A stretch of DNA of 64,000 bases from Flavobacteriaceae bacterium. Its GTDB lineage: Bacteria; Bacteroidota; Bacteroidia; Flavobacteriales; Flavobacteriaceae. The position numbers and the translations under genes are program-made. The stretch's first letter is position 1. Each line of letters starts with the position of its first letter. The stretch is from contig JAQWSK010000002.1 of assembly GCA_029243245.1 (NCBI GenBank), positions 1 to 64,000 of the forward strand. The letters are read 5' to 3'. Of the stretch, positions 46,460 through 56,189 are shown one piece after another. The notes beneath the pieces were generated by a model that had not been told where the DNA came from, ran no database searches, and was given only the letters and a program-made list of their open reading frames with translations.

Positions 46460-47275
46460 ATGAACAAACTAAATCTACTTTTAGTAGTATTAATGTTTTC
46501 TTGCAATACAAGAGAAAATAATCAACAAATAATTTCATCCACAGACGATTTGGACATTACTGATGAAAACCAAGTAATGCTTATTTGGTCTGATGAATTT
46601 GAAGTTGACGGCCCACCGTCTTCTGAAAAATGGTTTTTAGAAACTGTACCTCCCAACAATGGAAGTTGGTGGAATGAAGAGGATCAGTATTACACTAATA
46701 GAAGAGAAAACTCAATTGTTGAAGATGGTGTTTTAAAAATTATCGCTCTTAGAGAAGATTATGAAAATAAAAAATATACTTCTGCCAGAATGACTACACA
46801 AAATTTATTTGAATTTACATATGGAGAAGTCCATGTTAGAGCTAAACTCCCACAAGGACAAGGGACTTGGCCTGCAATCTGGATGTTAGGAAATACGATT
46901 GATACTTTAGGGTGGCCTGAGTGTGGTGAAATTGATATTATGGAGCATGGAAACAAGGACCCTGGGTTGGTTTCTTCAGCAGTTCATTTACCTAATGAAA
47001 ATGGAGATCATTATTATACTTCAGGAGAGCAAAAAATTGAAAACGAATCAAGCGAATTTCACGTATATAAATTAAAATGGTCCTCTTCTCAAATAGTTTT
47101 TTTTGTAGATGATGTTAAACATCATGCATTCTATCCTAATAGTGATATGCCATTTTGGAAACCTTTCTTTTTAATTCTCAACGTTGCAATGGGAGGTCAT
47201 TTTACAGACAATAATATAGATCCTGATTTTATTTCAGCCACAATGGAAATAGATTATATAAGAGTATACCAATAA
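46460..47275 (+). CDS. glycoside hydrolase family 16 lipoprotein, laminarinase-like
   Basis: Surface or periplasmic endo-beta-glucanase, 271 residues. The signal peptide ends in a lipobox at Cys15 (VLMFSC). The GH16 jellyroll shows LIWSDEFEVDGPP, WFLETVPPNNGSWWNEE, GEVHVRAKLPQGQGTWPAIW, the catalytic ExDxxE motif with Glu157, Asp159 and Glu162 (GEIDIMEHG), and LNVAMGGHFTDNNIDPDF. The pattern is typical of beta-1,3-glucanases that degrade laminarin, the storage glucan of diatoms. No SusC/SusD pair is next to it, so it is not in a standard polysaccharide locus here. Confidence 0.92.
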   Translation: MNKLNLLLVVLMFSCNTRENNQQIISSTDDLDITDENQVMLIWSDEFEVDGPPSSEKWFLETVPPNNGSWWNEEDQYYTNRRENSIVEDGVLKIIALREDYENKKYTSARMTTQNLFEFTYGEVHVRAKLPQGQGTWPAIWMLGNTIDTLGWPECGEIDIMEHGNKDPGLVSSAVHLPNENGDHYYTSGEQKIENESSEFHVYKLKWSSSQIVFFVDDVKHHAFYPNSDMPFWKPFFLILNVAMGGHFTDNNIDPDFISATMEIDYIRVYQ

Positions 47276-47465: not shown

Positions 47466-48152
47466 TTAATAAATACTATCTAAAAAATTAAAAATATTTA
47501 CTGCCCTTCTTCGATGTTCAATAAACCATCCTAATTGAGCTTTATTCACAGTTTTAAGATACTGAAGGTTACTCAAAAAAGTTTTATTCGTTTTAATATC
47601 TAAATAATTCATCTCTACTTTTCCTTTTGGTTTAGTAAATTCAATATCATATACAGTCATTTTATCAAATACGTATGGATCAAAAATTATATTTATTTGA
47701 TCAAAAATTCTTCGAACTAAATACTCTTCTCGCTCTCGAATATAATCTATGAAAATAAAATTATCATTATAATCTAAAAGAGTGTCAATCACTTTTTGAT
47801 TTTTAATCAAAGTTAAACTTCCTGAATTTTTTAATTGATCAATTGATGCATTATTAGCAAAAAACCTTGGTGGTCTTGGAAGGTATCTTGCATAAAAGTA
47901 AAGATCATTTGAAAAATCATTAAATTTATTATTTTTAAAAATAAAATAAATTGAATCAATTTGAATTTCTCTTTGCTTTCTTCTTGAAATTAAAACATCT
48001 AGTTCTTTAATGTCATTATTCAAATCATTTTTAAATGAATTAACAAAATCAATTTCACGTTTTTTCTCAGATATATCCTCCCTAAAATTTTCTACAAAAA
48101 ACCCAAGTGAAATGGCTAGAAATAACATTAAAAATTCTCTCAATAATTTCAT
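47466..48152 (-). CDS. DUF6090-like single-pass membrane protein
   Basis: 228 residues. The N-terminus KLLREFLMLFLAISLGFFVENF is a single membrane helix followed by the conserved REDISEKKREIDF segment and a long, charged, helical periplasmic or cytoplasmic domain (NNDIKELDVLISRRKQREIQ; YARYLPRPPRFFANNASIDQ; FLSNLQYLKTVNKAQLGWFI). The start resembles proteins annotated DUF6090 in Flavobacteriia. No function is known. It is the last gene, 6 bp after the DsrE-like gene, of the cytochrome c operon. Confidence 0.75.
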   Translation of the reverse strand: MKLLREFLMLFLAISLGFFVENFREDISEKKREIDFVNSFKNDLNNDIKELDVLISRRKQREIQIDSIYFIFKNNKFNDFSNDLYFYARYLPRPPRFFANNASIDQLKNSGSLTLIKNQKVIDTLLDYNDNFIFIDYIREREEYLVRRIFDQINIIFDPYVFDKMTVYDIEFTKPKGKVEMNYLDIKTNKTFLSNLQYLKTVNKAQLGWFIEHRRRAVNIFNFLDSIY

Positions 48153-48158
48153 AAAAAA

Positions 48159-48575
48159 TTAATTTGAAGAATTCAAGCCTTCTTTAATATAACTCCAGCC
48201 TTTCGACTGTTTAATGGCTATTTCAAGAATTCCATCAGGAACAGTTTCAACACCTTCAACCAAGTCCTTCCTTTTTAAGCCTAACTTATTCATTGTAGCT
48301 TCACATAGGATAACCCTTGCATTATCCAAAGAGACAACCTCAGAAAGCTTTTCAGCTATTTCTTTATTCTCATAAGTTGCCATTTTACCTGACCCACTAT
48401 ACATAACCAATTCGAATTCTGAATCTGGATAGGCGTTTGCCATTAAAGACAAATGTTTAATTGCTGTTTTATGAGCCTTTGGACTTGAGCTAGTAATATC
48501 AAAGACAACTTTAATATTTTGATTTTGCGCTAAAGTATTAAGAAACACAAATAATGATAAAAATATATACTTCAT
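48159..48575 (-). CDS. exported DsrE-family protein
   Basis: 138 residues with a Sec signal peptide (about 1-16, IFLSLFVFLNTLAQ) and a COG1416/DsrE-like fold: IKVVFDITSSSPKAHKTAIK, FELVMYSGSG, ARVILCEATMNKLGL with Cys91, and the C-terminal VEGVETVPDGILEIAIKQSK with GWSYIKEG. DsrE-family proteins usually act in cytoplasmic sulfur transfer via the conserved Cys; an exported form is notable. The last 25 residues match the neighbouring Tat protein without gaps. It lies 6 bp after that gene. Confidence 0.87.
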   Translation of the reverse strand: MKYIFLSLFVFLNTLAQNQNIKVVFDITSSSPKAHKTAIKHLSLMANAYPDSEFELVMYSGSGKMATYENKEIAEKLSEVVSLDNARVILCEATMNKLGLKRKDLVEGVETVPDGILEIAIKQSKGWSYIKEGLNSSN

Positions 48576-48581
48576 GTCTTT

Positions 48582-49262
48582 TTAATTACCGGCAAATATA
48601 TAACCACATCCGTTTTCTTGAGCTCTACCTAGTGCCCATACCCCAGAGGGAACAAGTTGAATTTCAGGAAGTATTCCTTCAATCATGTCCTCATATACAT
48701 CTTTAGGGTCTAAGCTCATTTTATTTGCTACAACTCCACTATAAACCCCAATCGCTAAGTTGCATACACAAAACAGTGCTCCTCTTTCTTGCATACGTTT
48801 TATACCGTCTATTCCTAGAGGAGGAAAATCACCATCTTGAGGTTCATATACTGTGTTTCTTAATGAAGGTTTTCCTGTTGAATTATCATTAATTTCAAAA
48901 ATTTCTCCAAGCTTATATTTATTCCAAATTTCTGATTTTAAAGCATATGGTATGGCATTGTGACGAAGAACTGACATTGCTGTTATATCACTGTCAGGCG
49001 AACCTGTTTCATTATTGGATTTGTAAAAAGCCCAGTTCCAAATAATGGGTAATCCTGCATGCGGAGTACTTCCATCATAAGCTATTCTATGGCTTCCTTT
49101 AATTTTTTTAAACCACTCATCAGCATCTTTAGTTTCAAGATGTTTTAATTCTGGTAATGTTTCCATGTTTTCAAATTCTTTAACCATCATGGGGAATGCA
49201 GAAGCACTTACGCCAAGGGCTAGGGTTGCAAAAAATGATCTTCTAGATTTATCTGTTTTCAT
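48582..49262 (-). CDS. Tat-exported DsrE-like protein of unknown function
   Basis: 226 residues from the ATG at 49262; the longer frame from 49376 overlaps the cytochrome gene and would bury the signal. The N-terminus SRRSFFATLALGVSASAFP is a twin-arginine signal. The mature protein has GALFCVCNLAIG (Cys165, Cys167) and a C-terminal LVPSGVWALGRAQENGCGYI motif (VP at 203-205, Gln215, Gly218, Cys219, Tyr221) that aligns gaplessly with the downstream DsrE protein. The Tat route suggests export in a folded state, possibly with a cofactor. Its place 16 bp after a TsdA-like cytochrome suggests sulfur chemistry. Confidence 0.82.
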   Translation of the reverse strand: MKTDKSRRSFFATLALGVSASAFPMMVKEFENMETLPELKHLETKDADEWFKKIKGSHRIAYDGSTPHAGLPIIWNWAFYKSNNETGSPDSDITAMSVLRHNAIPYALKSEIWNKYKLGEIFEINDNSTGKPSLRNTVYEPQDGDFPPLGIDGIKRMQERGALFCVCNLAIGVYSGVVANKMSLDPKDVYEDMIEGILPEIQLVPSGVWALGRAQENGCGYIFAGN

Positions 49263-49278
49263 ATTATTTAATTTAGGG

Positions 49279-50301
49279 TTATTTACTTTTTTTAATGTTA
49301 TACTCTGTTTTATAAAAATCAAAAATTGGTTGAAAAGGACCAAGCTGATGCTGTGCTTGAGAAAACAAATCAACATAAGGAGGGTATGGAGTTGACATCG
49401 GCTTCTTCTTTAAATCAGGAAAGTCTTCCTGAAGATTGTTTTTTATAGGTCTTAATTGTTGATTTATATATCCTGCTACATCATAAGACTCATGATCTTT
49501 TAGCATAGGAGAATCAAATGTCGCCCCTTGAGGCATATTATATTTTATAAAAGTAGCGGCAGTCAAAACTCTTGTCATCCCCGCTCCATTATTATAAGAA
49601 TTTGGACCCCATAAAGGAGGATAAAGGTATGTGTATTCGTCTATTTTTTGCCCTTGACCATCTGTTCCGTGACATTCAACACATACTCTATTATACACAT
49701 CTTCACCTTTAACTAAATCAACTTTTCTATTAGGATATTTTATAGATTTCAATCCTTTTCCACTTATTACTTCGCTTTGTTTTACATAGCGGCCCAACCA
49801 ATTTATATATGATATAATAGCATTCATTTCATTACTATTATTTTTTAACCTACTTCCATTCATGCTTCTTTCAAAACAACCATTTATTCTATCTTCTAAA
49901 CTTCCTATAATATCTTCTCTTCCTCTATATTGAGGGAATCGTTTATCAACACCAATTAAAGGCATGGCAAAAGGCTGTATACCACCATTTAAATGACAGT
50001 TAGTACATGATAAAGAATTTCCAACAAAAGGTTTTTCAAGAGATTTCTTTCCTAATAATTGAGAGGTTTCAGTAAAAAGCTTATATCCGTATTTTATATC
50101 TTTACCTGTTTTTGTGTCAGGTAAAGTTTTTGTATCATAACTCATCGAATATATACCTAAATCAATCTTTTCTTCGTTGGGAGAATCTCCTCCTAAATAG
50201 AGCATTATAATCAAAAAGATAATCATTAAAAAGTATAAAAAATAATTATATATTCTTTTTAATCCCTTAAAAAAAATCTCGTCGGATGTGTTATTATCCA
50301 T
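49279..50301 (-). CDS. dihaem cytochrome c, thiosulfate dehydrogenase (TsdA)-like
   Basis: Membrane-anchored (helix about 18-37) periplasmic dihaem cytochrome of 340 residues. Haem 1 motif CTNCH (Cys99, Cys102, His103) is followed by GVDKRFPQYRGRED and DRINGCFERSMNG with Cys142; haem 2 motif CVECH is at Cys207, Cys210 and His211. The RINxCFxRSMNG segment is a hallmark of TsdA-type thiosulfate/tetrathionate enzymes, in which this Cys is, as I recall, an axial haem ligand. It heads an operon with two DsrE-like proteins. A -7-like TATATTTA (minus strand, 50324-50331; 7 of 8) lies 22 bp before the start. Confidence 0.85.
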   Translation of the reverse strand: MDNNTSDEIFFKGLKRIYNYFLYFLMIIFLIIMLYLGGDSPNEEKIDLGIYSMSYDTKTLPDTKTGKDIKYGYKLFTETSQLLGKKSLEKPFVGNSLSCTNCHLNGGIQPFAMPLIGVDKRFPQYRGREDIIGSLEDRINGCFERSMNGSRLKNNSNEMNAIISYINWLGRYVKQSEVISGKGLKSIKYPNRKVDLVKGEDVYNRVCVECHGTDGQGQKIDEYTYLYPPLWGPNSYNNGAGMTRVLTAATFIKYNMPQGATFDSPMLKDHESYDVAGYINQQLRPIKNNLQEDFPDLKKKPMSTPYPPYVDLFSQAQHQLGPFQPIFDFYKTEYNIKKSK

Positions 50302-50488: not shown

Positions 50489-52105
50489 ATGACAAAAAAG
50501 TATTTTCTAATAACTTTCTTTTTTACAGTATTAATTGGTTGTAATCAAGAAGTCCCCTCATGTGATATATTAATTGAAAATGGAATGATATATAATGGGT
50601 CAGGTGAAAAACCATACAAAGGTTCAGTTGCAATAAATAATGAAAAAATATTATATGTAGGACCGAAAAAACAATTTATATCAAAAAAAACAATCAATGC
50701 AGAAGGAAAAGCTATTTCTCCAGGTTTTATAAATATGCTCAGCTGGGCTTATGGATCATTATTAAAAGATGGTAGATCCTTAAGCGATATTAAACAAGGA
50801 GTAACTTTAGAGGTTTTTGGAGAAGGCAACTCTCCGGGCCCAACTGGGATTAAGGATAGTTCTGATTATATTTCATTCGGAGATGCCATGTTGAAATTAG
50901 AATCTAAAGGTGTTTCAACCAATATTGCTTCCTTCTTAGGAGCTACAACTGTGAGAATTCAAGAAGTTGGATATGATAACAGAAAAGCATCATTAGAAGA
51001 AATCACTAATATGAAACAATTAGTCCAAAAAAGTATGGAAGAAGGTGCTATGGGAATTGGATCATCATTAATTTATGCCCCTGCAGACTATGCTAGTACA
51101 GGTGAATTGATTGCTTTAAGCAAAATTGCTGCTGAATATGGAGGAATGTATATTTCTCATATAAGAAATGAGGATAGTAAGGTTTTAGATGCAATAGATG
51201 AATTAATTACAATTTCAAAACAAGCGGATATTCCTGCTGAAATTTATCACTTAAAAGCTTCTCGAGAAGCTAATTGGAATCTTTTGGATAAGATGATTGA
51301 AAAGGTTGAAAAGGCTAGAGCTGAAGGTTTAAAAATTACAGCTGACATGTATACATATAACGCATCATCCACTGGTTTAACTGGTGTTATTCCTACTTGG
51401 GTTCAAGAAGGAGGGCATCGGGCATGGATCAATCGAATGCAAGAATCAGGTCCTCGAAAAAGAGTAATTGAAGATATTCGGAAGGAACTACTACAACAAG
51501 CCCCAGAAGGTATTCTAATGGTCGGTTTTAATAAAGAGGCTATGGCAGAAAAATATATGGGGATGACAATTGCTCAAGTAGCTAAAATCAGAAATCAAAC
51601 TCCAGAAGAAACCATAGTTGATTTAGTAATAGAGGATGATAGTAGAATTCAATGTATTTATTTTAGCATGAGTGAAGATAATATTCGAAAAAAAATAAAA
51701 CTACCTTGGGTTTCATTTTGTTCTGATGCTGGCTCTTTTTCGGACCCCTCTGAAAAATTCAGAACTCACCCAAGAGCTTTTGGAAGTTTTATTCGTGTTT
51801 TAGGAAAATATTCTCGTGATGAGGGACTAATAACTCTGGAGGAAGGAATTAGAAAACTAACGGGTTTCCCTGCTCAAAATTTAGGGTTAAAAGATAGAGG
51901 TTTTCTTAAAGAAAAGTTTTACGCTGATGTAATAGTTTTTGACCCAAAAGAAGTCAGAGATAATGCCACTTTTGATGATCCCATTCAATATGCAGAGGGA
52001 ATTGAACATGTTTTAGTAAATGGGAAACAGGTACTTGAAAATGGTGAGCATACAGGTGTTTTTTCTGGTAAATTTGTTAAAGGTCCAGGGTATAAAGACA
52101 ATTAA
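50489..52105 (+). CDS. D-aminoacylase-like amidohydrolase lipoprotein lacking the HxH motif
   Basis: 538 residues with a lipobox at Cys18 (VLIGC), then the amidohydrolase/N-acyl-D-amino-acid deacylase fold: DILIENGMIYNGSG, LEVFGEGNS (Glu112 where D-aminoacylases have Cys), YISHIRNEDS (His224), AEIYHLKAS (His254), CSDAGSF (Asp) and FDPKEVRDNATFDDPIQYAEG at the end. The N-terminal PGFxDxHxH metal site is replaced by PGFINMLSWAYG (about 79-89), so the HxH pair is absent while the later metal ligands remain. Probably a mononuclear deacylase subfamily; substrate unknown. The stop overlaps that of the convergent oxidoreductase gene by 4 bp. Confidence 0.85.
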   Translation: MTKKYFLITFFFTVLIGCNQEVPSCDILIENGMIYNGSGEKPYKGSVAINNEKILYVGPKKQFISKKTINAEGKAISPGFINMLSWAYGSLLKDGRSLSDIKQGVTLEVFGEGNSPGPTGIKDSSDYISFGDAMLKLESKGVSTNIASFLGATTVRIQEVGYDNRKASLEEITNMKQLVQKSMEEGAMGIGSSLIYAPADYASTGELIALSKIAAEYGGMYISHIRNEDSKVLDAIDELITISKQADIPAEIYHLKASREANWNLLDKMIEKVEKARAEGLKITADMYTYNASSTGLTGVIPTWVQEGGHRAWINRMQESGPRKRVIEDIRKELLQQAPEGILMVGFNKEAMAEKYMGMTIAQVAKIRNQTPEETIVDLVIEDDSRIQCIYFSMSEDNIRKKIKLPWVSFCSDAGSFSDPSEKFRTHPRAFGSFIRVLGKYSRDEGLITLEEGIRKLTGFPAQNLGLKDRGFLKEKFYADVIVFDPKEVRDNATFDDPIQYAEGIEHVLVNGKQVLENGEHTGVFSGKFVKGPGYKDN

Positions 52106-53427
52106 AAATTACGGTATGTACCATTAATGAATTTATTGGCTTCTTCCTCCAAGAATTTGGAAGAAATATTGTCCCAATGAAGAGTTTTTCCAGGAAAACG
52201 CCCAGCAATTACTCCTAATAAAATTGTTTCTGTTAATTTTGAAGCATAAGAAAAGGGTGCAGAACACCTAGCATTCCCAAGACATGAATCTACAAACTCA
52301 TGATAATGTTTTTTACTTTCTAACTCATAGTTTCTAACAGGGATACCTAAACCAAATTTTTCAATATCTATTTGATGATATTCTCCATCCATAATCAACT
52401 GAGGAAGTTTTTGAAAATGAGGCAAATAAAGCCTGCCTTTTTCTCCCATAAACATAGCTCCTTGATCATGTAGATTATCATTATTTGGTAGGATTAAATC
52501 ATCATGTACTGCAGGAGCTCCTACCCCATCATACCAAACCCATTTTAATTCACTGGTTGTATACTCTGTAGAAGAAAATATGTATGTTACCTTATTTTTT
52601 TCAGGAAAACCAAATCCATTAGGAAGTCTACACTCATTTTTAATAGTTTTTGGAACATCAAGAGCTAATGCATTATATGGAGTGTCAAAAATATGCACAC
52701 CCATATCACCTAGGGTTCCACAACCAAAATCAATTAATTTTCTCCAGTTTCCAGGGTGATAAACCCCTTCCTTGTATTTGTGATTCTTAGCTGTTCCTAG
52801 CCAAAGATTCCAGTCTAAATTAGAAGGGATAGGGTCAAAACTTTTTGGAGAAAGGCCATCGTATCCCCAATTTTTTGGTGACCATGCACGAACACAATTT
52901 ACTTTTCCTATGATACCAGACTGAATTAATAATGTAGCTAGCTTATAATCATAAAAGGAATGAACTTGAATACCCATTTGGGTAATTAATTTATTCTTTT
53001 TAGCCAATTTGGCCATCTTTCGTGCCTCTGAAATATGGTGAGTTAGTGGCTTTTGACAATATACCGCTTTACCTAAATCCATAGCCATAAGTGATGCAGG
53101 GGCATGAGTGTGATCTGGTGTAGAAACGACAACTGCATCAATTTGATCACCTATTTCATTTAACAATAAACGATAGTCAGAAAAAGTTCTTGCTTTAGGA
53201 TGAATTACTTTAGCAGCATTTAAAGCGTTTGAATCAACATCGCATAAAGCTACTATATCAACTGATTTATGAGAAGCAAATGCTTTTAAATCTTCTCCAC
53301 CCATTCCTCCAACACCAATATGGGCTGTTCTTAATTTTTTATTTTTTGATAAAGCCCATCCAAACGAAGGAATAAAAGCGGTAGAAGCTAATGTAGCAGC
53401 AGATTTTAAAAAGGTTCTCTTATTCAT
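52102..53427 (-). CDS. Gfo/Idh/MocA-family oxidoreductase, exported
   Basis: 441 residues. An N-terminal signal (KRTFLKSAATLASTAFIPSF) precedes the Rossmann domain (RTAHIGVGGMGGEDLKAF; VDIVALCDVD; AVVVSTPDHTHAPASLMAMD) and EKP-type motif (AVYCQKPLTHHISEARKMAK). The C-terminal domain has DFGCGTLGDMGVHIFDTPYN. The KR rather than RR pair makes Tat export possible but not certain. It overlaps the DUF1080 gene by 4 bp. The pairing of such oxidoreductases with DUF1080 proteins is seen in sugar oxidation/3-keto-sugar loci. Confidence 0.9.
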   Translation of the reverse strand: MNKRTFLKSAATLASTAFIPSFGWALSKNKKLRTAHIGVGGMGGEDLKAFASHKSVDIVALCDVDSNALNAAKVIHPKARTFSDYRLLLNEIGDQIDAVVVSTPDHTHAPASLMAMDLGKAVYCQKPLTHHISEARKMAKLAKKNKLITQMGIQVHSFYDYKLATLLIQSGIIGKVNCVRAWSPKNWGYDGLSPKSFDPIPSNLDWNLWLGTAKNHKYKEGVYHPGNWRKLIDFGCGTLGDMGVHIFDTPYNALALDVPKTIKNECRLPNGFGFPEKNKVTYIFSSTEYTTSELKWVWYDGVGAPAVHDDLILPNNDNLHDQGAMFMGEKGRLYLPHFQKLPQLIMDGEYHQIDIEKFGLGIPVRNYELESKKHYHEFVDSCLGNARCSAPFSYASKLTETILLGVIAGRFPGKTLHWDNISSKFLEEEANKFINGTYRNF

Positions 53428-54125
53428 AATTTTCTAATTTTTATTTCTCTAAAAGCCAAGGGGCTATCATGATCTTGAAGTCCAATAAAACCTTTTTTAA
53501 ATTTGCCATAATCAGGATATTCATTCCATTTACCAATTTCTTTTCTTTTTTTCCAATCTTCAGACCATGGAACAAAAGAAAGAACTAATTGACCATTTAA
53601 CCAATGCTCAACTTTTGATGGAGTGAAAATTATTTTAGAACTATTCCATTCCCCAGCATTTTTTATCAATTTTTCAGTTTCCTCTGCTTCATACATTCCG
53701 TAATCAGCAGCAGTTTTTTGCCAATTCTCAAGGGAGTTATTATTAATTTCACCCCACTTTAAGTCGTCTATTAGTTGATATTCTGGTGACACCTCATAAG
53801 GAGCAGTATAACCTTCTTTAATGTGGTATAGTATTCCACTATTTCCTCCTGCAGGTAATTTCCATTCTAAATACAATTCAAAGTTATCAAATTCCTCACT
53901 TACATAAATTATATCTCTTCCTCCTTTGTATTCGGCTTCTAGTCTTTTCTCCGTTTCAAATGTTAAAACTCCTTTTTTAACTATCCAGCCTGGAGGCATT
54001 ATTTCAGAATTATACCCTCTCCATCCATTAGTTGTTTTACCATCAAACAGATATAGCCAATCACTATTATCATTACATGAAATGATAATAGATATCAAAA
54101 CAAAAAAACTAAGACTCTTTTTCAT
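53424..54125 (-). CDS. DUF1080 (3-keto-disaccharide hydrolase-like) lipoprotein
   Basis: 233 residues from the ATG at 54125 (the longer frame overlaps nagB). The signal ends in a lipobox (LISIIISC, Cys17). The concanavalin-like DUF1080 domain shows WLYLFDGKTTNGWRGYN, GWIVKKGVLTFE, FENFELYLEWKLP-type strands (DNFELYLEWKLPAGGNSGI), YEVSPEYQLIDD and the C-terminal GFIGLQDHDSPLAFREIKIR. DUF1080 members include hydrolases of 3-keto-disaccharides, which fits the coupled Gfo/Idh/MocA oxidoreductase that could generate such keto sugars. Confidence 0.9.
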   Translation of the reverse strand: MKKSLSFFVLISIIISCNDNSDWLYLFDGKTTNGWRGYNSEIMPPGWIVKKGVLTFETEKRLEAEYKGGRDIIYVSEEFDNFELYLEWKLPAGGNSGILYHIKEGYTAPYEVSPEYQLIDDLKWGEINNNSLENWQKTAADYGMYEAEETEKLIKNAGEWNSSKIIFTPSKVEHWLNGQLVLSFVPWSEDWKKRKEIGKWNEYPDYGKFKKGFIGLQDHDSPLAFREIKIRKL

Positions 54126-54126
54126 A

Positions 54127-56031
54127 TCAAATAATATGTCTTTTAAATGCTTCCATAGCCTCATACTCTGCCATTCCTAATCGATTATACTCTTGGGCTG
54201 TATTTTTATTTCTTTGTTCAGCCCTTAACCAAAAATCTCTGTTATCTTGTCCTTGAAACATAACCTTATCTTTTTGTGATTGATGATATAATATAGCATT
54301 TCTTTTTTGAACTACCTGGCTTGGACTCATTGGAACAGCCATTTCAATCTCTTCTATGTCCCATTCTTGCCACGCACCCCTGTATAACCACAACCAGCAA
54401 GATTTCATAAATGATAGATTTTTAATTTGCTTAACAGCATCAAATAATATACTTAAGCATACCCTATGAGTCCCATGAGGATCAGCCAAATCACCAGCAG
54501 CAAATATTTGGTGAGGTTTAATAGATTTAATTAAATCAACTGTTATATCAACATCCTTTTTTGTTGCTTGATTTTTTTTAATTTTTCCAGATTCATAAAA
54601 AGGAAGATCCATAAAATGTAAATTAAGATCTGAAAACCCTAAATAACGAGCTGCAGCAAGACATTCACTTCTTCTTATAGCTCCCTTAAGTTTTAATGTT
54701 GATTTAGAATTAATTTTATTTTGGATTTTATCCACTATTTTATCAGTAACAATAATTTCTTCTGAAAAGGAATATTTTGCAATTTCAATAAACTTAAGAG
54801 CTTCTTCATTTGAGACACCAATGTTCCCAGAGGTTTGATATGCTATATGAACATCATGACCTTGATCAAATAGACGTTTAATAGTACCCCCCATTGAAAT
54901 AACATCATCGTCTGGGTGTGGACTAAAAACCAAAACACGCTTTTTAGCAGGATTAGCTCTTTCTGGGCGATCACTATCATCAGTATTCGGTTTTCCTCCT
55001 GGCCAACCTGTTATAGTTTTTTGAAGCTGATTAAACATCCATATGTTTAAATCATAAACAGATCCACTAGATATAACTAAACTTGACAAACCATTCTCAT
55101 TATAATCTCTTTGAGTAAGTTTTAAAATTGATTTATTTGTTTGTTTACTTAACCAGGTTATAGCCTTTTTTCTAAGTTCATCAGTCCAATTAAAATCTTT
55201 AACTAACCAAGGTGTTTTATGTTTTATTAATTGGGCACTTGATTCATTGTCTAAAATAAAAGTAGTATTATTATGTTTTTGGAGGAAACTAGCTGGGTAG
55301 TTAGAATCTATATTTCCTTCTATAGATTTGGATATCACACTTGATTTCTTATGACCCCAAGCCAATAAAACAATTCGTTTTGCATTTAGTATGGTTCTAA
55401 TACCCATAGTAATTGCCCTATTTGGCACTGACTCAACACCATTAAAATCTGAAGCAGCATCTTCTCTAGTTATAGGGTCAAGACTTACTATTCGAGTACA
55501 TGAATTTTGATTTGAGCCAGGCTCATTAAAACCAATATGCGCAGTTCTTCCTATTCCTAGTAATTGATAATCAATTCCGCCAAGAGAATTAATCTTTTCT
55601 TCATACTTCTCACAAAAGTTTGAAATATTGTGCTCTAACAATTTACCTTGTGGTATATTAATATTATTTTCAACAATATCTATATGAGAAAATAAATGTT
55701 GATACATAAAGCTATGATAACTCTGTTCATTGTTCTTTTCAATTGGGAAATATTCATCCAAATTAAAAGTGATCACTTTTTTAAAACTTAACCCTTCTTC
55801 TTTATGTAACCTCACTAATTCCCTGTATACTCCAATTGGTGATGAACCCGTAGCTAATCCTAAAATAAAATGATCTTTAGTACATTTTTTTATTAAATCG
55901 GATATTTCATGAGCTATAATTTTAGATCCTTGTTCTACAGAATCAAAACAAACATTATGTATTTTTTCAAACCTAGTAGTCTCATCACTTCCAGGAATTT
56001 TAAACTGAATAGAATTATTATCTTTTATCAT
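54127..56031 (-). CDS. nagB: glucosamine-6-phosphate deaminase fused to PIG-L-type deacetylase
   Basis: 634 residues in two domains. The N-terminal NagB domain (about 1-270) has FILGLATGSSPIGVYREL, VITFNLDEYFP and LLGIGRTAHIGFNEPGS (Ala in place of the usual Gly before HIGF). The C-terminal PIG-L domain (about 355-600) has VLVFSPHPDDDVISMGG and AAGDLADPHGTHR, the zinc-binding HPDDD and HxxH-type residues. The ATG at 56031 is preferred over a TTG three codons upstream. The fusion, common in Bacteroidota, could deacetylate an amino sugar and deaminate its phosphate. Just upstream of the DUF1080 and oxidoreductase genes, separated by 1 bp. Confidence 0.93.
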   Translation of the reverse strand: MIKDNNSIQFKIPGSDETTRFEKIHNVCFDSVEQGSKIIAHEISDLIKKCTKDHFILGLATGSSPIGVYRELVRLHKEEGLSFKKVITFNLDEYFPIEKNNEQSYHSFMYQHLFSHIDIVENNINIPQGKLLEHNISNFCEKYEEKINSLGGIDYQLLGIGRTAHIGFNEPGSNQNSCTRIVSLDPITREDAASDFNGVESVPNRAITMGIRTILNAKRIVLLAWGHKKSSVISKSIEGNIDSNYPASFLQKHNNTTFILDNESSAQLIKHKTPWLVKDFNWTDELRKKAITWLSKQTNKSILKLTQRDYNENGLSSLVISSGSVYDLNIWMFNQLQKTITGWPGGKPNTDDSDRPERANPAKKRVLVFSPHPDDDVISMGGTIKRLFDQGHDVHIAYQTSGNIGVSNEEALKFIEIAKYSFSEEIIVTDKIVDKIQNKINSKSTLKLKGAIRRSECLAAARYLGFSDLNLHFMDLPFYESGKIKKNQATKKDVDITVDLIKSIKPHQIFAAGDLADPHGTHRVCLSILFDAVKQIKNLSFMKSCWLWLYRGAWQEWDIEEIEMAVPMSPSQVVQKRNAILYHQSQKDKVMFQGQDNRDFWLRAEQRNKNTAQEYNRLGMAEYEAMEAFKRHII

Positions 56032-56189
56032 ATATGACAATCTATAAACTTTTTTAGTATAAAATTTGAATACTCATAAATTAAATCATAAAATTCTGTA
56101 TACATTTCAGAAATAAATATTTTTGGAAAGATAAATTAATTTACTTAAAATCAAGATATTTTAATTATACTGTTTTTATTGATTAGTAA

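Follow-up and report, generated by a model that had tools for sequence, protein, structure and literature searches.

A TsdA-like cytochrome gene linked to genes for two exported DsrE-like proteins in Bacteroidota: a candidate periplasmic thiosulfate/tetrathionate unit

Introduction

DsrE proteins are known as cytoplasmic sulfur carriers. What, then, are two DsrE-like proteins with export signals doing beside a membrane-anchored cytochrome related to thiosulfate dehydrogenases? We examined this question in the small marine Bacteroidota genome of a Flavobacteriaceae bacterium (GCA_029243245.1, about 90% complete), starting from positions 1 to 64,000 of contig JAQWSK010000002.1, a stretch of 64,000 nucleotides referred to here as the window. 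A preliminary description of this DNA had proposed that oxidation of thiosulfate or a related compound is coupled to Cys-based carriers in the periplasm.

We favour, at a probability of roughly 0.55, the reading that the trio is a periplasmic thiosulfate/tetrathionate unit in which TsdA works with Cys-based, exported DsrE-fold proteins. If this is true, heterotrophic Bacteroidota, among them some with small marine genomes that lack Sox genes, handle thiosulfate on Cys residues in the periplasm. Every component is a member or a remote relative of a family already described. Our literature search, conducted mostly outside subscription journals, found no published account of exported DsrE proteins together with TsdA.

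Results

The three genes lie on the minus strand from 50301 down to 48159 in the order tsdA, Tat-protein gene, and Sec DsrE gene, with gaps of 16 bases (tsdA/Tat gene) and 6 bases (Tat/Sec gene), confirming the tight spacing noted earlier. A further gene on the same strand (47466 to 48152), missed in the preliminary description, begins 6 bases past the end of the Sec gene. It encodes a membrane-associated protein of 228 amino acids with an N-terminal membrane segment and a weak match to DUF6090 (E = 0.002). This gene adjoins the trio on the same strand in near relatives only, and in one locus (L053) it lies on the opposite strand. Because it is not kept with the trio outside near relatives, we rejected it as a fourth member of the unit; it is probably a passenger. 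Glycan and amino-sugar genes surround the unit (46460 to 47275 and 50489 to 56040). These neighbours include a GH16 enzyme, an amidohydrolase, and, recognized by eye, Gfo/Idh/MocA, DUF1080-like, and glucosamine-6-phosphate deaminase genes. Portions of this neighbourhood are retained next to tsdA in same-genus loci.

The first gene (49279 to 50301, minus strand, stop included) encodes a TsdA-like dihaem cytochrome c of 340 amino acids that is kept in 18 aligned relatives. In phmmer searches it matches the Allochromatium TsdA structures 4wqc and 4wq7 with E values of 6e-48 to 4e-47 (best, 5.9e-48 to 4wqc_A), and it scores 36.5 bits against the Pfam family SoxA-TsdA_cyt-c (cut-off, 27), with Cytochrom_C also above its cut-off. 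The cytochrome had been described as membrane anchored and dihaem with a RINGCFERSMNG segment, and this description stands: TsdA homology is accompanied by one N-terminal transmembrane anchor (residues 21 to 37, 50191 to 50241, minus strand; mean Kyte-Doolittle value, 2.72) and two CxxCH motifs. In the haem 1 motif, C99-TN-CH (49993 to 50007, minus strand), Cys and His are identical in 51 Bacteroidota TsdA rows. Both Cys residues of the haem 2 motif, C207-VE-CH (49669 to 49683, minus strand), are likewise found in 51 of 51 rows, and its His in 50, the one other row having an unread base. Cys142 (49876 to 49878, minus strand; 51 of 51 rows) aligns in 4wqc with the Cys that serves TsdA as distal ligand of its active-site haem, haem 1; counted on the alignment, this is Cys96 in Allochromatium. 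Met256 (49534 to 49536, minus strand), the expected distal ligand of haem 2 from the TsdA alignment, is Met in every one of the 51 rows. It is preceded by Asn255 in 50 of 51 rows, where wild-type 4wq7 has Lys; an Asn before the haem 2 Met is the Campylobacter arrangement. R128 (51 of 51 rows) and R138 (50 of 51) align with the TsdA active site, whose Arg residues in Allochromatium are R82 and R92. With two CxxCH motifs, Cys142 as predicted haem 1 ligand with its CFERSxNG segment, and the active-site Arg all present, the cytochrome is, judged by homology, a TsdA with a complete set of predicted catalytic residues.

We know of no biochemistry for the TsdA branch that contains the window cytochrome, and glycan genes surround the unit in the window genus. 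Both points would suit a cytochrome of the TsdA/SoxA superfamily that acts on another substrate, its linkage to the other two genes resulting from an unrelated redox process. We regard this as highly improbable, given that the catalytic residues are kept and that both partner families point independently to thiosulfate/tetrathionate chemistry.

The last gene of the trio (48159 to 48575, minus strand, stop included) encodes a DsrE-family protein of 138 amino acids, which scores 28.7 bits against Pfam DsrE (PF02635; gathering cut-off, 22.7) and matches MTH1491 (1l1s) at 5e-7 in phmmer. Its hydrophobic N terminus has the character of a Sec-type signal peptide (residues about 1 to 17, 48525 to 48575, minus strand), and its relatives also have hydrophobic N termini, mostly ending in A-Q. 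Cys91 (48303 to 48305, minus strand), the DsrE-type active-site Cys, is invariant in 19 homologues. PF02635 has a single match in the window genome, the Sec protein, and no other DsrE gene was found there; the exported proteins are thus no spare versions of a relay in the cytoplasm. In one relative, a tandem pair of Sec-type DsrE genes follows the Tat gene (L007:6697-7598), and the N terminus of the second is lipoprotein-like.

Between these two genes lies that of the Tat-signal protein (48582 to 49262, minus strand, stop included; 226 amino acids). We placed its start at a conserved ATG at 49262 (MKTDKSRRSFF); the longest-ORF start, at 49376, falls inside tsdA. With the starts used here, the residue numbers given earlier for Cys91, Cys165, and Cys167 are right. 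The twin arginine of the Tat signal, Arg7-Arg8 (49239 to 49244, minus strand), is invariant in 32 homologues, Tat-signal models match 16 of 26 relatives, and TatC is present in the window genome. Export signals had been claimed for both DsrE-like proteins, and the opposing view, that both are cytoplasmic proteins with mispredicted starts, is rejected because all 32 homologues keep the twin arginine and the relatives of the Sec protein are hydrophobic at the N terminus. A plasmid search with the Tat protein gave no match.

Two Cys residues are invariant in the same 32 homologues: Cys167 (48762 to 48764, minus strand), the proposed active-site residue and the second Cys of a CxC pair, and Cys219 (48606 to 48608, minus strand). 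Cys165, the first Cys of the pair (48768 to 48770, minus strand), is replaced by Gly in one relative (L043) and is therefore not essential. It was rejected as the key residue on this ground and because the thiosulfate dehydrogenase profile NF052225, described below, has no preference for Cys at this position. Cys219 is not common to that profile and is possibly a resolving or oligomer Cys.

The Tat protein has no Pfam match at an E value of 1 or below, does not reach the PF02635 gathering cut-off, and matches no PDB sequence. An AlphaFold model built from the 32-relative alignment has a mean pLDDT of 85.7, and the only PDB fold matches at an E value of 0.001 or below are 2pd2, 1l1s, and 8uja, all of which are DsrE folds (E ≤ 9.1e-4). 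Further, profile-profile comparison of the Tat and Sec families gives a probability of 81% and places Cys167 on Cys91. Together, the model and the profile comparison predict that the Tat protein has a DsrE fold with a Cys at the DsrE position. The earlier label "DsrE-type" applies to the Sec protein by its Pfam score; for the Tat protein it fails in Pfam and finds its support in the predicted fold and the profile-profile match.

Among NCBIfam models, NF052225, "thiosulfate dehydrogenase," is matched by 25 of 26 relatives of the Tat protein (best, 1.9e-7). The 26 relatives otherwise match Tat-signal models and a few weak ones hit by one or two members, and NF052225 is the sole named functional family matched by the Tat protein. 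The window protein scores 21.5 bits and the members listed 12 to 31 bits. These values fall far short of the curated equivalog cut-off (300 bits): the Tat protein is remotely related to this family and does not belong to it. When 60 genomes were searched, NF052225 matched only the Tat gene, in nine genomes, and no match exceeded the cut-off.

The homology lies in the C-terminal half and includes a common Cys. We scored single substitutions in one relative (L029; 30.6 bits unchanged) against NF052225. Replacing Cys167 costs 5.1 bits (C167S) or 5.0 bits (C167A), indicating that the profile favours Cys at this position; losses were also seen for W113A (7.2 bits), Y116A (5.7), P205A (4.5), F164A (4.1), and G161A (4.0). 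C165S costs 1.2 bits, C219S 0.3 bits, and H101A almost nothing. From its name, its size, and the Tat signal, NF052225 probably represents the haem-free, Tat-exported thiosulfate dehydrogenase of Acidithiobacillus, of the AFE_0042 type.

We surveyed linkage in 34 distinct Bacteroidota/Chlorobiota loci that carry the Tat gene. TsdA lies within 1.5 kb of the Tat gene in 26 of them and all three genes occur together in 20, whereas the Tat and Sec genes stand alone in three; one of the five other Tat loci is truncated on the upstream side of the Tat gene, where its contig stops. A survey of synteny in relatives had been proposed as a check on the preliminary description, and the trio is indeed linked across several Bacteroidota families. 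Gene order takes several forms: Flavobacteriaceae differ from a Chitinophaga/Algoriphagus group, and two arrangements are divergent. The Tat gene of one genome (L046:5630-7831) lies away from TsdA and points in the opposite direction to a neighbouring gene for a PQQ dehydrogenase that carries a fused cytochrome domain.

Co-occurrence extends beyond adjacency. One draw of 394 Bacteroidota genomes contained the Tat gene in 9 and TsdA in 45, and all nine Tat genomes have TsdA (hypergeometric p, 1.5e-9, a figure that genome relatedness makes optimistic). Chance linkage of the two was rejected on this result (9/9 versus 45/394). Similarly, genomes with a Tat gene and no adjacent TsdA carry TsdA elsewhere in five of five cases tested. 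Tat-linked copies are split between two deep branches of the TsdA tree, in which well-supported branches require two or more label changes; the association therefore extends over divergent lineages of TsdA. About one-third of Tat loci lack the Sec gene and most TsdA genomes lack the Tat gene, indicating that TsdA does not need them.

These data also bear on a different division of labour, in which the Tat protein would itself act, like AFE_0042, as a thiosulfate dehydrogenase without haem, TsdA mainly as its electron acceptor, and the Sec protein as an accessory carrier. Thiosulfate dehydrogenase is the only named family that the Tat protein matches, and TsdA accompanies the Tat gene in every genome tested (9/9, and 5/5 where unlinked). 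AFE_0042 failed to reduce ubiquinone or horse cytochrome c (PMC6335251), so a dedicated acceptor would be wanted. However, TsdA retains its full set of catalytic residues and occurs alone in most TsdA-bearing Bacteroidota and therefore does not look like a mere acceptor, and the homology to NF052225 is remote. We consider this arrangement unlikely.

We then compared the sulfur genes near TsdA in relatives with those of the window genome. Near Tat-linked TsdA copies we found TauE/SafE, rhodaneses, and OsmC. Bacteroidota TsdA genes without the Tat gene often adjoin a Sec-type DsrE gene or SoxB-like Tat-signal hydrolases, and also YeeE-type transporter pairs, TauE/SafE, OprD-like porins, and solute-binding proteins. 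The SoxB-like hydrolases next to TsdA score 244 to 276 bits against TIGR04486, below its cut-off of 550. Six stretches (L099, L100, L102, L103, L105, and L113) carry such hydrolases next to TsdA, mostly with YeeE-type pairs, and by eye we recognized no SoxYZ in these six. In two others (L104:2572-4725 and L106:2479-4632), a DsrE gene and then two genes for solute-binding proteins come after TsdA; this pair, identified by PF13531 in L104 and by position in L106, recalls the solute-binding gene beside AFE_0042.

The window genome is plainer. It gave no match to the SoxB family and no YeeE, absences that at about 90% completeness are likely rather than certain, and its two TauE genes both lie away from the unit. 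Outside the window, a TauE/SafE gene (G000:C4:74370-75053) shares the contig of the unit at a distance of about 25 kb. A full Sox or cytoplasmic Dsr pathway is unsupported in this genome, as there is no SoxB match and no second DsrE, and with SoxB and YeeE absent the downstream fate of the sulfur is not evident from it. Of the function proposed earlier, the thiosulfate role is supported by TsdA, by the NF052225 homology, and by the sulfur-gene neighbours in relatives; carriage on Cys is a plausible proposal.

Two further explanations depend on this context. TsdA enzymes can be bifunctional, and the DsrE-family protein DsrE3A reacts with tetrathionate but not with thiosulfate. The unit might accordingly run in reverse, with TsdA reducing tetrathionate and the DsrE proteins cleaving or binding it, as an alternative respiration or a detoxification. 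Relatives' neighbours (rhodanese, TauE, SoxB-like) indicate oxidation instead, and the genome looks aerobic on weak evidence (a single match to a haem-copper oxidase, which falls well short of the cbb3 cut-off); we find reversal distinctly unlikely. The YeeE-type pairs adjoining TsdA in other Bacteroidota raise the thought of assimilation or repair, the exported DsrE proteins catching sulfane sulfur or thiosulfate for uptake while TsdA adjusts speciation. The window genome lacks a YeeE match and no uptake gene adjoins the trio, and we judge this role very improbable.

Discussion

What we show here are the three genes with their export signals, their haem and Cys motifs, their homologies, a predicted fold, and their conserved linkage and co-occurrence. 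How a periplasmic thiosulfate/tetrathionate unit would work is inferred: its reaction, the way sulfur flows, which DsrE protein acts first, and the final product. The most likely mechanism is that TsdA makes or uses tetrathionate, with which the exported DsrE proteins form Cys-thiosulfonates. From its anchor in the inner membrane, TsdA would interconvert two thiosulfates and tetrathionate and pass electrons to the respiratory chain. Cys167 of the Tat protein (DsrE fold, thiosulfate dehydrogenase type) would take up a thiosulfate unit as Cys-S-S-SO3-, with tetrathionate as the source or by an oxidative step in which TsdA accepts the electrons. Cys91 of the Sec DsrE protein would then accept the thiosulfate group or sulfane sulfur from the Tat protein, or free the product. 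Such Cys-based carriage is plausible because cytoplasmic DsrE3A reacts with tetrathionate to form a Cys-S-thiosulfonate, which is then passed to TusA (PMC4175335). DsrE3A is unreactive with thiosulfate and with persulfide donors (PMC4175335), and a persulfide relay is one of several options for the unit. The failure of DsrE3A to react with thiosulfate weighs against the favoured mechanism, as do the remoteness of the NF052225 homology, the loci and TsdA genomes that lack the Sec or the Tat gene, and the missing SoxB and YeeE matches.

A broader and more tentative proposal, which we think rather unlikely to hold as a whole, is that TsdA and exported DsrE-fold Cys carriers, joined in relatives by a SoxB-like hydrolase, are a SoxYZ-free counterpart of the Sox system, and that the Acidithiobacillus thiosulfate dehydrogenase is of the same kind. 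TsdA, a relative of SoxA, would oxidatively load thiosulfate onto an exported DsrE-fold Cys, as SoxAX does onto SoxY. In the richer relatives, sulfate would then be removed by the Tat-exported SoxB-like hydrolase. The haem-free Acidithiobacillus enzyme would likewise be a DsrE-fold, Cys-based protein.

The point most likely to surprise specialists is the DsrE fold and catalytic Cys proposed for a haem-free thiosulfate dehydrogenase. A 2019 review lists the structure and mechanism of the haem-free Acidithiobacillus enzyme as unresolved (PMC6335251). Our findings on the Tat protein suggest both a fold and a catalytic Cys for that enzyme, making its mechanism directly testable by a single Cys mutation.

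Among known systems, Allochromatium TsdA (4wq7, 4v2k) shares with the window cytochrome both haem motifs, the haem 1 Cys, the haem 2 Met, and the RFPQY-R and CFERSxNG segments. The window TsdA differs in its membrane anchor, in a conserved C-terminal extension of about 50 residues beyond the matched region, in having Asn rather than Lys before the haem 2 Met, and in the exported DsrE genes alongside. The TsdA-SoxB pathway of Erythrobacter flavus 21-3 (PMC7608252) resembles the other Bacteroidota loci that combine TsdA with SoxB-like hydrolases; the window genome differs from it in lacking a SoxB match, and the portion of the pathway's published text available to us does not include DsrE proteins (PMC7608252). 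DsrEFH/TusBCD and the YTD cluster also employ DsrE-family sulfur carriers, and YeeE occurs near TsdA in some relatives. All of these are cytoplasmic, however, whereas both carriers of the window unit have export signals and so fall outside that cytoplasmic class. DsrE3A of Metallosphaera cuprina, a DsrE-family protein with a reactive Cys, offers in its thiosulfonate chemistry the analogue that we propose (PMC4175335); unlike the window proteins, it is cytoplasmic, works with TusA, adjoins Hdr genes, and has no haem partner (PMC4175335). The thiosulfate dehydrogenase of Acidithiobacillus ferrooxidans, AFE_0042, is a protein of about 25 kDa (PMC6335251), annotated as carrying a Tat signal; its gene neighbours are doxDA and a gene for a solute-binding protein of the periplasm (PMC2754497). 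The window Tat protein scores far below the NF052225 cut-off and is paired with TsdA, not doxDA, yet it resembles AFE_0042 in size, in its Tat signal, in its place in a thiosulfate gene cluster, and, through the presumed identity of NF052225, in the Cys at position 167.
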